A stretch of DNA of 64,000 bases from Nocardioides sp. L-11A (GTDB taxonomy: Bacteria > Actinomycetota > Actinomycetes > Propionibacteriales > Nocardioidaceae): contig CP124680.1 of the NCBI GenBank assembly GCA_029961745.1, forward strand, positions 2,480,001 through 2,544,000. The letters run 5' to 3'. Under the pieces are notes generated by a model that searched no databases, was not told the origin of the DNA, and worked only from the letters and a program-made list of their open reading frames with translations. The position numbers and the translations under genes were made by a program. Below are positions 42,957-54,620 of the stretch, piece by piece (the first letter of the stretch is position 1; each line of letters begins with the position of its first letter).

Positions 42957-43793
42957 TCAGCCGCGGTCGGACGGCTCCGGCACGACGGCGACGGTGGTGC
43001 GGGCCCGTTCGACGACGGCGGTGGCGATCGACCCGGTGACCAGGCGTCCGACGGTGTCGAGGGGATGCCGACCGACGACGACCAGGTCCCAGGCCGCGGT
43101 GCGGCTGCCGAGCACGTCGTCCACCAGTCCGTGCGTGACGCGGAGGGTGACCCGCACGTCGGGGTACTTCTCGCCGAATCCGGCGACGGACTCGGCGAGG
43201 AGGAGGTGCGCCTCGTCCTCGGGACCCAGGTCGAGGTCGTCGACCCGCACGTTGCGGAGTCCGGCGACGGCGGCCACGACGTCCCACACGACGTGGACGA
43301 CGGTGATGCCCTGGCCGCGCAGCGACGCCTGGGCGAAGGCGAAGTCGAGGACGGGGAGCGAGGATGCGGTGCCGTCGATGCCGACGATCACGCCCTTGCC
43401 CCGCTGCTCCTCGGCCTGTGGCCGGCACACGACGACGGGGCAGGCGGCGAGCCGGCTGACCGCGGTGCTCACCGAGCCGAGCAGCATGGTGCGGACCGTG
43501 CCGCGGCCCCGGGAGCCGAGCACCATCAGGTGGGCGTCGCGGGAGAGGTCGACCAGGACGCCGCGCGGGTCGCCGGGGAAGGTCAGGCCGACCACGTCGA
43601 CCCCTGGGGCGAGCTCCTCGGCCTGGCGGAGCGCCGCGTCGTTGATCCGTTGCGCGTCGCCCTCCTCGGCGGTGACGACGACCAGCGGGCGCGCCTCGAG
43701 GGCGGCCTGTCGCGCGGCCCAGTCCAGGGCGCGGGCGGCGTGCTTGGAGCCGTCGGCAGCGACCACGATGCTGCCCGGTCGGATGGTGTTCAT
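42957..43793 (-). CDS. Tandem-domain universal stress protein
   Basis: A 278-residue cytosolic protein with two UspA domains (about 1-140 and 145-278). Each begins with a strand followed by an ATP-loop-type segment: SIVVAADGSKHAARALDWAARQA, and GVIVGIDGTASSLPVLDFAFAQA. The phosphate-binding Gly-rich parts are GSRGRGTVRTMLLGSVSTAVS and GRHPLDTVGRLVTGSIATAVVE. This tandem form is characteristic of actinobacterial dormancy-linked USPs. It is 10 bases downstream of a paralogous USP gene and distal to cydABDC, so it is probably expressed under low oxygen with them. The ATG at 43793 is chosen because upstream sequence belongs to the previous gene. Confidence 0.88.
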   Translation of the reverse strand: MNTIRPGSIVVAADGSKHAARALDWAARQAALEARPLVVVTAEEGDAQRINDAALRQAEELAPGVDVVGLTFPGDPRGVLVDLSRDAHLMVLGSRGRGTVRTMLLGSVSTAVSRLAACPVVVCRPQAEEQRGKGVIVGIDGTASSLPVLDFAFAQASLRGQGITVVHVVWDVVAAVAGLRNVRVDDLDLGPEDEAHLLLAESVAGFGEKYPDVRVTLRVTHGLVDDVLGSRTAAWDLVVVGRHPLDTVGRLVTGSIATAVVERARTTVAVVPEPSDRG

Positions 43794-43803
43794 GGGGTCC
43801 TCC

Positions 43804-44730
43804 TCAGATCTCGGCAGGCGGGTCGGCCTGCGGTACGACGGCGACGGTGGTCCGGGACCGCTCCACGACCGACGTGGCGACCGCACCGGTGACCAGACGG
43901 AGCAGTGAGTCGACTGGGTGCCGCCCGACGACGATGAGGTCCCAGGTCGCACTGGTGTCGGTCAGGCAGTCCTCGGCCATGCCGCGCGCGAGCTGGAGCT
44001 CGACGCGGACCTCGGAGAACTTCGACGAGATCCCGGCGACGCTCTCTCCGAGGAGGACGCGGTACTCGTCCAGGCCCGCCTCTCGCGGGGAGACCGGCGT
44101 CGGTCCGTGCACGGCGCCGACCTCGTCCCAGACGGCGTGGACGACCGTGAGGGGCAGGTCCATCAGGGCGGCCTGCCGGAACGCGAACTCGATGACGGGC
44201 AGCGACTCGGGCGTGCCGTCGGCGCCGACCAGGATGCCGGCGTCCGTGCTCTCCTCGGGTCGGGGCCGGCAGACGACGACCGGGCAGCCGGCGTCGCGGC
44301 TGACCGCCGCGCTGACCGAGCCCAGGAGCTTGCTGCGGAACACGCCCCGCCCGCGGGATCCGACCACGATGAGGTAGACCTCCCGGGAGAGCTCGACGAG
44401 CACGTGGCGGGGATCTCCGAGCAGCACCGCGCTCGTGACCTCGAGGTCGGGGTGGAGCTGTCGGGCGAGCTCGACCGCCGCGCTGGTGATGGCGCGACCG
44501 CTCTCCTGCAGCTGCTCGGGGTCGTAGGCGTAGGCGGCCCCCACGCCGCTCCAGGCGACCGCCGGCACGCCGGGGATGCCGATAGCGGTCACGACGGTCA
44601 GCGGTCGCCGCTCGAGGAAGGCCTGCTCGGCGGCCCAGCGGACGGCCCGGTCGGCGTCGTCGGAGCCGTCGGTGGCGACGACGATGCTGGTGGCGGCGAC
44701 GGGATGCCCGCCGGTGTCAGTCGTGGTCAT
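43804..44730 (-). CDS. Tandem-domain universal stress protein
   Basis: A 308-residue cytosolic protein with two UspA domains (about 12-155 and 160-308): SIVVATDGSDDADRAVRWAAEQA and GILVGADGTPESLPVIEFAFRQA, with GSRGRGVFRSKLLGSVSAAVSR and GRHPVDSLLRLVTGAVATSVVE as nucleotide loops. It is a close paralogue of the following USP; local duplication is inferred. The ATG at 44730 lies inside the end of cydDC (14-base overlap), which points to one transcript running cydA-cydB-cydDC-usp-usp. No separate promoter is visible between cydDC and this gene. Confidence 0.88.
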   Translation of the reverse strand: MTTTDTGGHPVAATSIVVATDGSDDADRAVRWAAEQAFLERRPLTVVTAIGIPGVPAVAWSGVGAAYAYDPEQLQESGRAITSAAVELARQLHPDLEVTSAVLLGDPRHVLVELSREVYLIVVGSRGRGVFRSKLLGSVSAAVSRDAGCPVVVCRPRPEESTDAGILVGADGTPESLPVIEFAFRQAALMDLPLTVVHAVWDEVGAVHGPTPVSPREAGLDEYRVLLGESVAGISSKFSEVRVELQLARGMAEDCLTDTSATWDLIVVGRHPVDSLLRLVTGAVATSVVERSRTTVAVVPQADPPAEI

Positions 44731-52958: not shown

Positions 52959-52973
52959 AGGTGCGGGAGTCCC
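52959..52973. promoter_or_regulatory. DosR-like box upstream of the PNPOx-fold gene
   Basis: On the minus strand GGGACTCCCGCACCT keeps the first arm (GGGACT) and most of the second arm of the DosR box. It lies between the divergent PNPOx-fold gene (start 52888) and the kinase gene (start 53019), so it could serve either. It is the weakest match of the three in its second arm. Confidence 0.5.
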
Positions 52974-53018
52974 GAGATCCGCGGGTCCTTGTGCCCGCTG
53001 CCGGTAGCGTTCGGGGGC

Positions 53019-54620
53019 ATGAGGGGCACGGACGGGATGGACGGGCCGGACGCCGGCCGGCCGGTGGACCTGGACGGGGTCGAGTTCGAGGACCTGGTGC
53101 GCGCCGTGCTCGACCGGATGCACGGCGCGCTGGACCAGCAGGCGCGCCTGCAGCTCCTCCTCGACGCCGTCGTCACGATCTCGGCGGACCTCAGCCTCGA
53201 CGGCGTCCTGGCGCGGATCGTCGCCATCGCCAGTCGCCTCGTCGACGCGCGGTACGCCGCGCTGGGGGTGCTGAGCGCCGGCGGCAGCCGGCGGCTGCGC
53301 ACCTTCGTCCATCACGGCATCTCCGCCGACCTCGCCGCCGAGATCGGCGACCTGCCCACCGGTCACGGCCTGCTCGGGCTGATCATCGACCGGCCCGAGC
53401 CGCTGCGCCTGCACGACATCGCCGAGCACCCGGCGTCGTACGGCTTCCCCGAGCACCACCCGCCGATGAGCTCCTTCCTCGGCGTGCCCGTGCGGATCCG
53501 GGACCGGGTCTTCGGGAACCTCTACCTCACCGAGAAGGCCGGGGGCGGCGACTTCACATCGGAGGACGAGGAGATCGTGGTCGCGCTCGCCGCGGCGGCC
53601 GGCGTCGCGATCGAGAACGCCCGGCTCTACGAGGAGACCACGACCCGCGAGGCGTGGGCCCGCGCCACGGCCGCGCTCGCACCGGCGCTGGCCGATCCCG
53701 ACCCGGCGGACGACCCGGTCGCGGGCCTGGCCGCGCAGGCGCGGGACCTCTCCGGCGCCGATGCCGCCTGGGTCACGCTCACCCCCGGCGACGAGGTCGC
53801 CTCGGTGATCGCCCACAGCGGGGTCGAGGACCACGGGGACGGCCCGGTCCTGGAGGTGCCCTTCGCGCAGTCCGCTGACGTGAGCGGCACGCTGTCGCTG
53901 GCCTGGTCCCCGGAGCACGAGGACCGCTACCACGTGCTCGACCAGAAGCTCGTCGCGGCGTACGCCGAGCAGGCGGCGCTCTCGCTGCAGTTGGCCGAGG
54001 CACGCGAGGACCAGCGCCGGCTCGCGGTCCTCGAGGACCGCGACCGGATCGGGCGCGACCTCCACGACCTGGTCATCCAGCGTCTCTTCGCCGTCGGCCT
54101 CGGCCTGCAGGGAGCGACCCGCCTGGTGCAGAAGCCCGAGGTCGCGGCGCGCATCGAGCAGGCGGTCGACGACCTCGACGCCACCATCAAGGACATCCGG
54201 CGCGCGATCTTCGGGCTGAGCACCGTCGAGACGGCGGGCGACGTCCAGGCGGAGGTCACCCGGCTGGTCGACCGGGCGGCGTCGACGCTGAAGTTCCGGC
54301 CCGCGCTCCGCTTCGAGGGACCGGTCCGCACCCTGATCCCCGACGACGTCGTCCCCGACCTGCTCGCGGTCCTGGCCGAGGGCCTGTCGAACGCCAGTCG
54401 GCACGCCGGCGCGAGCGCGGTCGAGGTGATGCTGGAGGCGGGTGCCGAGATCGTGCTGACGGTCAGCGACGACGGCCGCGGGATGGCGGGCGCGGTGACC
54501 GAGAGCGGGATCGCGAACATGCGGGCGCGGGCCGAGCAGCGCGGGGGCGAGCTGCGGGTGGAGTCCGCGGCGGACGGCGGGACCACGCTGGTCTGGACGG
54601 TGCCGCGCGTCCGTTCCTAG
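53019..54620 (+). CDS. devS: DevS/DosT-type GAF-GAF sensor histidine kinase
   Basis: A 533-residue soluble sensor kinase with two GAF domains (about 50-200 and 215-330), a HisKA_3 dimerisation domain and a HATPase at the end. The first GAF contains [38 protein letters not shown]; His146/His147 in HHPPM match the region around the heme-binding His of mycobacterial DosS/DosT, so a heme oxygen/redox sensor is likely. The phosphoacceptor is His349 in [17 protein letters not shown], and the ATP site includes NASRHAG and DDGRGM. The ATG at 53019 follows a DosR-like box. It should phosphorylate the DevR-like regulator 0.5 kb upstream. The end overlaps the carboxyltransferase gene by four bases on the other strand. 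Confidence 0.9.

Follow-up and report, generated by a model that had tools for sequence, protein, structure and literature searches.

A predicted DosR/DevR-type oxygen-response module with the cytochrome bd operon among its likely targets in Nocardioides sp. L-11A

The DevR (DosR) regulator of Mycobacterium tuberculosis has been studied as a dormancy regulator. Its regulon includes an Acg-type oxidoreductase and universal stress proteins (USPs), and its binding sites have the core GGGACN4GTCCC. Here, an 11.7-kb island with a similar content was analyzed in Nocardioides sp. L-11A, within a window of 64,000 nucleotides (bases 2480001-2544000 of the 5.68-Mb chromosome, a single contig). The island combines a DevR-type regulator (DevR1) and its sensor kinase (DevS1) with two USP genes, an acg-like gene, a gene for a PNPOx-like protein and cydABDC, the operon for cytochrome bd and its assembly exporter. 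We interpret it, with a probability of about 0.77, as a DosR/DevR-type oxygen-response module whose regulator is predicted to control cytochrome bd directly. The DevR/DosR-DevS/DosT system of M. tuberculosis and the system described here share the regulator family, a heme-GAF kinase, two related sensors and a layout of primary and secondary sites. In contrast to the mycobacterial regulon, cydABDC appears to be wired in here, whereas the accessible portion of PMC7739888 reports cydAB of M. smegmatis to lie outside the DevR regulon.

The OsdR/OsdK system of Streptomyces coelicolor is likewise a compact island, in which genes for USPs, a nitroreductase and a PNPOx protein accompany the regulator. 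According to the available part of PMC5069765, predicted OsdR sites control 20 of the 22 genes from SCO0198 to SCO0219; the terms 'cyd' and 'cytochrome' are absent from the main text of that paper. The original prediction for this locus had contrasted a compact island, bd oxidase included, with the scattered dormancy regulon of mycobacteria. Compact DosR-type islands are already known from OsdR, and what appears to be new is the predicted placement of cydABDC under DevR. No report of DevR/DosR control of cyd outside mycobacteria was found among the matches listed from the open PMC literature, and the accessible portions of PMC3388012 and PMC7018068 added nothing on cyd. Rex control of cydABCD in Streptomyces is also a low-oxygen-related switch acting on the same oxidase operon, and the Streptomyces loci shown here carry a Rex-type palindrome at cydA. 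The available text of PMC5355995 describes Rex as an NADH/NAD+-sensing repressor that binds and controls cydA1 in S. avermitilis. Unlike this repressor, the regulator of the present island is a predicted heme-sensor activator, and its cydA promoter has no Rex box.

The genes of the island are as follows.

42957..43793, minus strand: USP1, two-domain universal stress protein (Pfam Usp; 75.5% identity to USPb of a second island in this genome, island 2)
43804..44730, minus strand: USP2, two-domain universal stress protein (Pfam Usp; 74% identity to USPa of island 2)
44717..48109, minus strand: cydDC fusion, encoding a thiol-reductant ABC exporter that serves the assembly of bd oxidase (exceeds the cut-offs of TIGR02857 and TIGR02868)
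48106..49134, minus strand: cydB, cytochrome bd subunit II (PF02322, TIGR00203)
49152..50594, minus strand: cydA, cytochrome bd subunit I (PF01654, 564.7 bits)
50714..51700, minus strand: acg-like FMN oxidoreductase (267.6 bits to NF047509, whose cut-off is 199)
51829..52500, plus strand: devR1, NarL-family response regulator (Pfam Response_reg and GerE; best PDB match 3c3w)
52475..52897, start uncertain, minus strand: PNPOx-like protein with a split-barrel flavin-binding fold (PF12900)
53019..54620, plus strand: devS1, heme-GAF sensor histidine kinase of the DosS/DosT type (best match DosT GAF 2vzw, E 1e-50)

The gene content and order given by the original prediction were borne out by these Pfam, NCBIfam and PDB-sequence matches. 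The best PDB match of DevR1 was M. tuberculosis DevR itself (3c3w, E 1e-65, 224.7 bits; the next best reached 157.7). In the alignment the recognition helix EKTVKNYVS is identical in the two proteins, LAEKTVKNYVS aligns unchanged, and the switch positions DD, D, T and K are retained; these helix and phospho-acceptor residues are the ones that we take to be important. DevS1 matched best the heme GAF domains of DosT and DevS (2vzw, 2y8h), with an intact HHPPM motif whose histidine is presumably the heme-proximal ligand of GAF-A, and its kinase core was recognized by Pfam as HisKA_3 plus HATPase_c. The kinase had been described as GAF-GAF with HHPPM; the heme GAF and the motif were found, and Pfam gave one GAF stretch at E<=0.001, which leaves the second GAF putative. 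The cydDC product exceeded the NCBIfam cut-offs for both CydD and CydC, and CydA was 89% identical to the CydA of Nocardioides daeguensis, the closest among the matches listed.

Candidate DevR sites were scored with a position matrix trained on 15 cydA-upstream boxes from outside Nocardioides and Marmoricola, one of them from an Aeromicrobium metagenome-assembled genome. Evenly spaced segments of the same genome, 400 kb in total, served as the control for these scores, and conservation was judged by aligning the sequence with L225 and L226, its two closest relatives. Four elements in the island were considered further.

51757..51770, no strand: strongest box, common to the divergent devR and acg genes (16.1 bits; 0 control sites equal or better)
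50683..50696, minus strand: DevR-type box ahead of cydA (10.4 bits, matched by 11 control sites; conserved)
44789..44802, minus strand: DevR-type box that precedes usp2 and falls within the 3' end of cydDC (9.5 bits, matched by 18 control sites)
52983..52996, minus strand: conserved element upstream of the PNPOx gene, GGGCACAAGGACCC (identical in L226, 13/14 in L225; 5.9 bits)

The devR/acg box is kept in degenerate form in both relatives and is the predicted site of devR autoregulation. The cydA box is middling by score and stands by its position and conservation. The usp2 box lies 58 bp upstream of the usp2 start and is conserved in L225, in L226 and in a non-coding relic within island 2; a box also occurred at usp2 in all five linked loci in which usp2 is the next recognized gene after cydDC (L225, L226, L228, L231, L238). 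Its 14-bp core, GGGACCTTCGGCCC, is also found in the listed OsdR sites of narG2 and SCO0167 in the accessible part of PMC5069765. The element GGGCACAAGGACCC is weak by the matrix, and its assignment upstream of the PNPOx gene therefore rests on conservation. Two of the three boxes proposed originally, those at cydA (50683) and at devR/acg (51757), held up; the third, at 52959-52973, was rejected (0.6 bits, not conserved; the conserved element lies 24 bp away), and the usp2 box had been overlooked. The overlaps claimed between cydB and cydDC (4 bp) and between cydDC and usp2 (14 bp) are real, and this packing makes a single cydA-cydB-cydDC-usp-usp transcript plausible. The box preceding usp2, on the other hand, argues for an additional internal promoter in the end of cydDC.

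The linkage of devR to cydA was surveyed in 148 Nocardioidaceae genomes, with DevR matches (E<=1e-65) in 122 and CydA matches (E<=1e-100) in 104. Among the matches listed, devR lay within 10 kb of cydA in at least 22 of the 83 genomes having both, the window genome included, against 0.54 expected from random placement in a 4.2-Mb genome (distances measured from the lower coordinate of one match to that of the other). The order devS-devR-acg-cydA-cydB-cydDC was common to 10 of 20 linked genomes, in stretches of 5.7-19 kb, and some of these ten loci also have the PNPOx gene and usp2. In five other linked loci (L239-L243) devR instead follows cydDC directly. There, no site above 5.1 bits was found upstream of devR and the cydA box was present in four of the five, as is expected if devR is autoregulated through the cyd promoter. 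These loci appear to represent a capture of devR into the cyd operon. Among 80 named loci, a DevR with at least 50% identity was present in at least 7 (some of them incomplete), including those of Herbidospora, two Amycolatopsis and a Pseudonocardia metagenome-assembled genome.

Boxes at cydA were then compared across relatives. The named set comprised 79 loci, or 80 cydA upstreams with the window added; it overlaps the Nocardioidaceae family set (e.g., L011 and L226). Counted by mismatches, and hence free of matrix training, a box with at most one mismatch occurred at -140..-40 of cydA in 20 of the 80 upstreams, where 19 permuted half-sites gave at most 3 and the background was 84/14452 windows. 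Among the genera with such a box are Nocardioides, Micromonospora, Virgisporangium, Dactylosporangium, Actinomadura, Herbidospora and Nakamurella. By matrix, a box of at least 9 bits at -200..-40 was found in 19/21 sampled cydA upstreams linked to devR within 10 kb and in 5/5 linked at 10-30 kb. This amounts to 24/26 linked upstreams against 21/55 others (Fisher p 2.7e-6, a value that overstates independence since the genomes are related), including 0/5 among other genomes without a DevR hit; control windows carried a box in 25/2484 cases at 9 bits and 5/2484 at 12 bits. Sampling left aside 25 of 106 CydA rows, among them G126, linked at 9 kb.

These comparisons bear on the possibility that widespread genes became neighbors by accident and that GC-rich palindromes arose at random around them. 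The modest density of boxes in the island and the 32 DevR-like matches (E<=1e-15) in this genome would fit such an origin by chance, which is nevertheless very improbable: it is largely contradicted already by linkage in at least 22 of 83 genomes among the matches listed where about 0.5 was expected, by boxes in 20/80 upstreams where permuted half-sites reached 3 at most, and by a recurring promoter spacing.

The spacing was derived from 55 cydA promoters (59 minus near-duplicates) aligned on the box. A peak for a weak second box appeared 22 bp further downstream (z 4.6; the next best offsets were 23 and 21), with a score of at least 2 bits at +22 in 12/55, and TAnnnT occurred 44-49 bp past the box in 25/55, compared with 7/55 in a control interval. 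In the available part of PMC3029386, DevR targets of M. tuberculosis have at least two closely packed sites, the proximal one overlapping the -35 region. By alignment, the 55-promoter set likewise combines the core with a closely packed second box near -35, and its +22 and -10 spacing matches that of the published targets. In the 300 bp upstream of devR, a box of at least 9 bits was found in 13 of 16 loci outside the cydDC-devR type, and TAnnnT lay 44-46 bp past the best box in 8 of the 16 (a control interval was used for the cydA promoters alone). The corresponding elements in the window are the following.

50661..50674, minus strand: element resembling a secondary site, placed at the +22 peak relative to the cydA box (4 mismatches by inspection)
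50631..50636, minus strand: predicted cydA -10 hexamer TAGCGT (46 bp after the box; kept in L225 and L226)
51779..51792, plus strand: secondary-site-like element at +22 bp from the devR box (by position; 3 mismatches to consensus)
51816..51821, plus strand: predicted devR -10 hexamer TACCGT (45 bp after the box; kept in L225 and L226)

The second site at the window's own cydA is weak. The GTG start of devR coincides with the predicted transcription start, which suggests a leaderless message. Altogether, the linkage, box conservation and promoter spacing comparisons support well the proposal that this DevR/DevS pair is linked to its own targets, cydABDC included.

From these features the following sequence of events can be proposed. 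DevS1, and also the DevS2 kinase of island 2, would use the heme in its first GAF domain to sense falling oxygen, or nitric oxide or carbon monoxide, and would phosphorylate DevR1. Phosphorylated DevR1 would bind a primary box centered on the promoter region some 66 bp ahead of the predicted transcription start, and a secondary, weaker box 22 bp closer to that start and overlapping the -35 region. It would recruit RNA polymerase at cydA and, as positive autoregulation, at devR; it probably does so at acg and the PNPOx gene as well. A second promoter inside the end of cydDC, likewise activated by phosphorylated DevR1, may drive usp2-usp1. As oxygen falls, the cell would gain a high-affinity oxidase plus its assembly exporter.

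Several observations weigh against direct control of cytochrome bd by DevR1. The window cydA box is unexceptional in score, given its 11 equals per 400 kb of control, and the box of L226 scores below 9 bits. A 12-bit cut-off loses the window box (16/21 at 10 kb or less, 5/5 at 10-30 kb) and lowers the linked count to 21/26 against 15/55 others (p 8.7e-6). With 21 of the 55 other cydA promoters carrying a box and 34 lacking one, the wiring is labile. Among 60 Nocardioidaceae cydA upstreams (in 16 of them the match does not begin at a start codon), 13 had a box at -160..-40 with one mismatch or none, versus 7 for the permuted half-site GAGCG and at most 2 for each of the remaining 18 permutations. 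This contrast is weaker than that in the named set. The island holds 3 sites of at least 9 bits where 0.73 are expected; this density alone is weak, and promoter position and conservation therefore carry the case. The -10 hexamer at 45 bp was not seen upstream of acg or usp2. The consensus deduced for OsdR (AGGGCCGATCGGCCCT; GGGCCGATCGGCCC) differs from the core used here, with single OsdR sites that do match. Finally, hypoxic induction of M. smegmatis cydA without DevR is stated, as 'data not shown', in the accessible portion of PMC7739888.

This last report leads to the operators of other regulators at cydA. Its available text also describes M. smegmatis cydA as Crp-dependent, and mycobacterial cytochrome bd is ascribed to Crp and SenX3/RegX3 (PMC7739888 and PMC7719681, accessible parts). 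In the named set, Rex palindromes (at most 2 mismatches) lay upstream of cydA in 23/79 loci, with at most 5 for scrambled half-sites, and Streptomyces made up 11 of the 14 Rex-palindrome loci listed. The Nocardioidaceae set had 3/81, no excess over scrambles (at most 4). By class, the 79 named promoters gave 27 with DevR boxes (partly circular, as all 15 matrix-training sites are among them), 23 with Rex palindromes, 20 with TACTAC...GTAGTA-like palindromes and 17 with none of these. The TACTAC type was also found in 30/81 family promoters; examples in the named or family sets are L178, L185, L029 and L044. Because scrambles of it gave 0-13 (family) and 0-11 (named), part of this signal may be composition. 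Our guess for its regulator is a repressor of the BlaI/CopY type.

A Rex or Crp-type regulator could mainly drive cydA here, as in Streptomyces or M. smegmatis, leaving the DevR box minor or decaying. A Rex-family domain is encoded in this genome (G000:C1:4982644), and the excess of Rex palindromes in the named loci and the published Rex control of S. avermitilis cydA1 and Crp control of M. smegmatis cydA (available parts of PMC5355995 and PMC7739888) speak for it. However, no Rex palindrome (TTGTGA-N6-TCACAA) with at most 3 mismatches was found in the 400 bp upstream of the window cydA, and DevR and Rex boxes occurred together in 2/79 named loci (p 0.0019, confounded by phylogeny). We regard this alternative as improbable.

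The original prediction had also called the module self-contained. This was rejected by the presence of a larger island 2 at 3.764-3.804 Mb (C1:3764001-3804000; L140, L141), with its own regulator and kinase and denser boxes. Genes outside the window were taken from a custom codon-usage caller, and their starts are approximate. Island 2 encodes five USPs, two P-type ATPases, GAPDH, DevR2, Hsp20, two PPDK-like proteins, an acyl-CoA-synthetase-like protein, arginine deiminase, ornithine carbamoyltransferase, an amino-acid-kinase-family protein that is carbamate kinase by context, DcuC, DevS2 and a second Acg-like protein. Ten sites of at least 12 bits were found in its 40 kb, where 0.5 are expected. 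The arginine deiminase pathway and DcuC stand among these boxes, a predicted anaerobic ATP supply under DevR-type control.

DevR2, or another NarL-type regulator, may be the main regulator at cydA, with DevR1 minor or specialized. The DevR-like proteins of this genome show 63% identity to DevR1 at 3771672, 52% at 1171061 and at most 44% elsewhere. DevR2 has the same recognition-helix core and lies amid the denser boxes, and DevS2 is 83% identical to DevS1 and also has HHPPM. This version is rather unlikely, though less so than Rex or Crp control, and it is compatible with the module proposed here. It is opposed by the repeated linkage to cydA, in relatives, of a DevR close to DevR1, by the tracking of the box with that linkage, and by the strong box and -10 spacing that DevR1 has of its own. 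As the recognition helices are near-identical, DevR1 and DevR2 may both act, and the assignment of boxes to DevR1 is best read as provisional.

Part of island 2 is colinear with the window island: its devS2-acg2-uspA-uspB show 83, 69, 74 and 76% identity to their counterparts. Between acg2 and uspA, about 135 bp (L141 about 17508-17640) align to the 3' end of cydDC, with 75% identity over 135 bp to L225 (E 1e-16, as a pairwise value), 83% over 75 bp to L226 and 79% over 63 bp to cydDC of the same genome. By inspection, the former reading frame of this relic is broken by a stop and a gap of one base, yet the DevR box in it is preserved. Most simply, this part of island 2 can be read as a copy of the window island from which devR, PNPOx and cydABDC were lost while the usp promoter stayed; the window island as the source is presumed. 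Such a decayed copy, with cydABDC apparently lost and the usp box kept, would be a natural experiment on selected promoter elements.

On the genomic evidence, the capture of the cytochrome bd operon by a DosR-type module is predicted to be recurrent in Nocardioidaceae and to occur in some other families. This suggests that many actinobacteria wire their bd oxidase to a direct oxygen sensor and not to the redox or cAMP regulators of the model species. A broader proposal, to which we give slightly less than even odds, is that cytochrome bd is under DevR/DosR heme-sensor control in much of the Actinomycetes, with the cydA operator swapped repeatedly among DevR, Rex and a third, TACTAC-palindrome regulator. 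In some Nocardioidaceae devR would have joined the end of the cyd operon, one box serving both the oxidase and autoregulation; DosR would be ancestrally, or recurrently, a respiration switch, with the mycobacteria, without cyd in the regulon, as the exception. A bd operon with a DevR-type box, often beside devR, in a family of soil bacteria offers a direct test of whether DosR-type systems evolved for the management of respiration in addition to dormancy, and the cydA promoters of relatives form a natural series of operator exchanges.

The original prediction had proposed to judge its boxes against chance over the genome. Perfect palindromes were indeed more frequent than the reversed pattern (28 versus 4), a result offset by the location of 14 of the 28 inside called genes. 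Of the 14 between genes, the majority stand ahead of genes that have no evident connection to dormancy; the palindrome count, which also weighs against the reading above, was dropped as evidence for the island. The pattern GGGACTNNNGNCCC was not discriminating either (24 sites, 7 forward and 17 reverse, versus 16 in control), and in-window sites with at most 2 mismatches (65, below the shuffle mean of 117) were uninformative.

Three further boxes lie away from the island. A strong one in the window (22091-22104, 17.4 bits) is 85 bp upstream of a glutamine synthetase gene (22190-23530) and also just upstream of a minus-strand gene (21367-22044). A perfect palindrome at C1:1161064 (L093/L144) stands between a sigma-70-type factor gene and an FlgN-like gene, about 10 kb from the third DevR-like gene (52% identity). 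Another perfect box, GGGACCAAGGTCCC (19.8 bits, window 28460-28473), lies between a GT2 glycosyltransferase gene on the minus strand and a PAS-GGDEF-EAL gene on the plus strand, and may connect the DevR system with cyclic-di-GMP.

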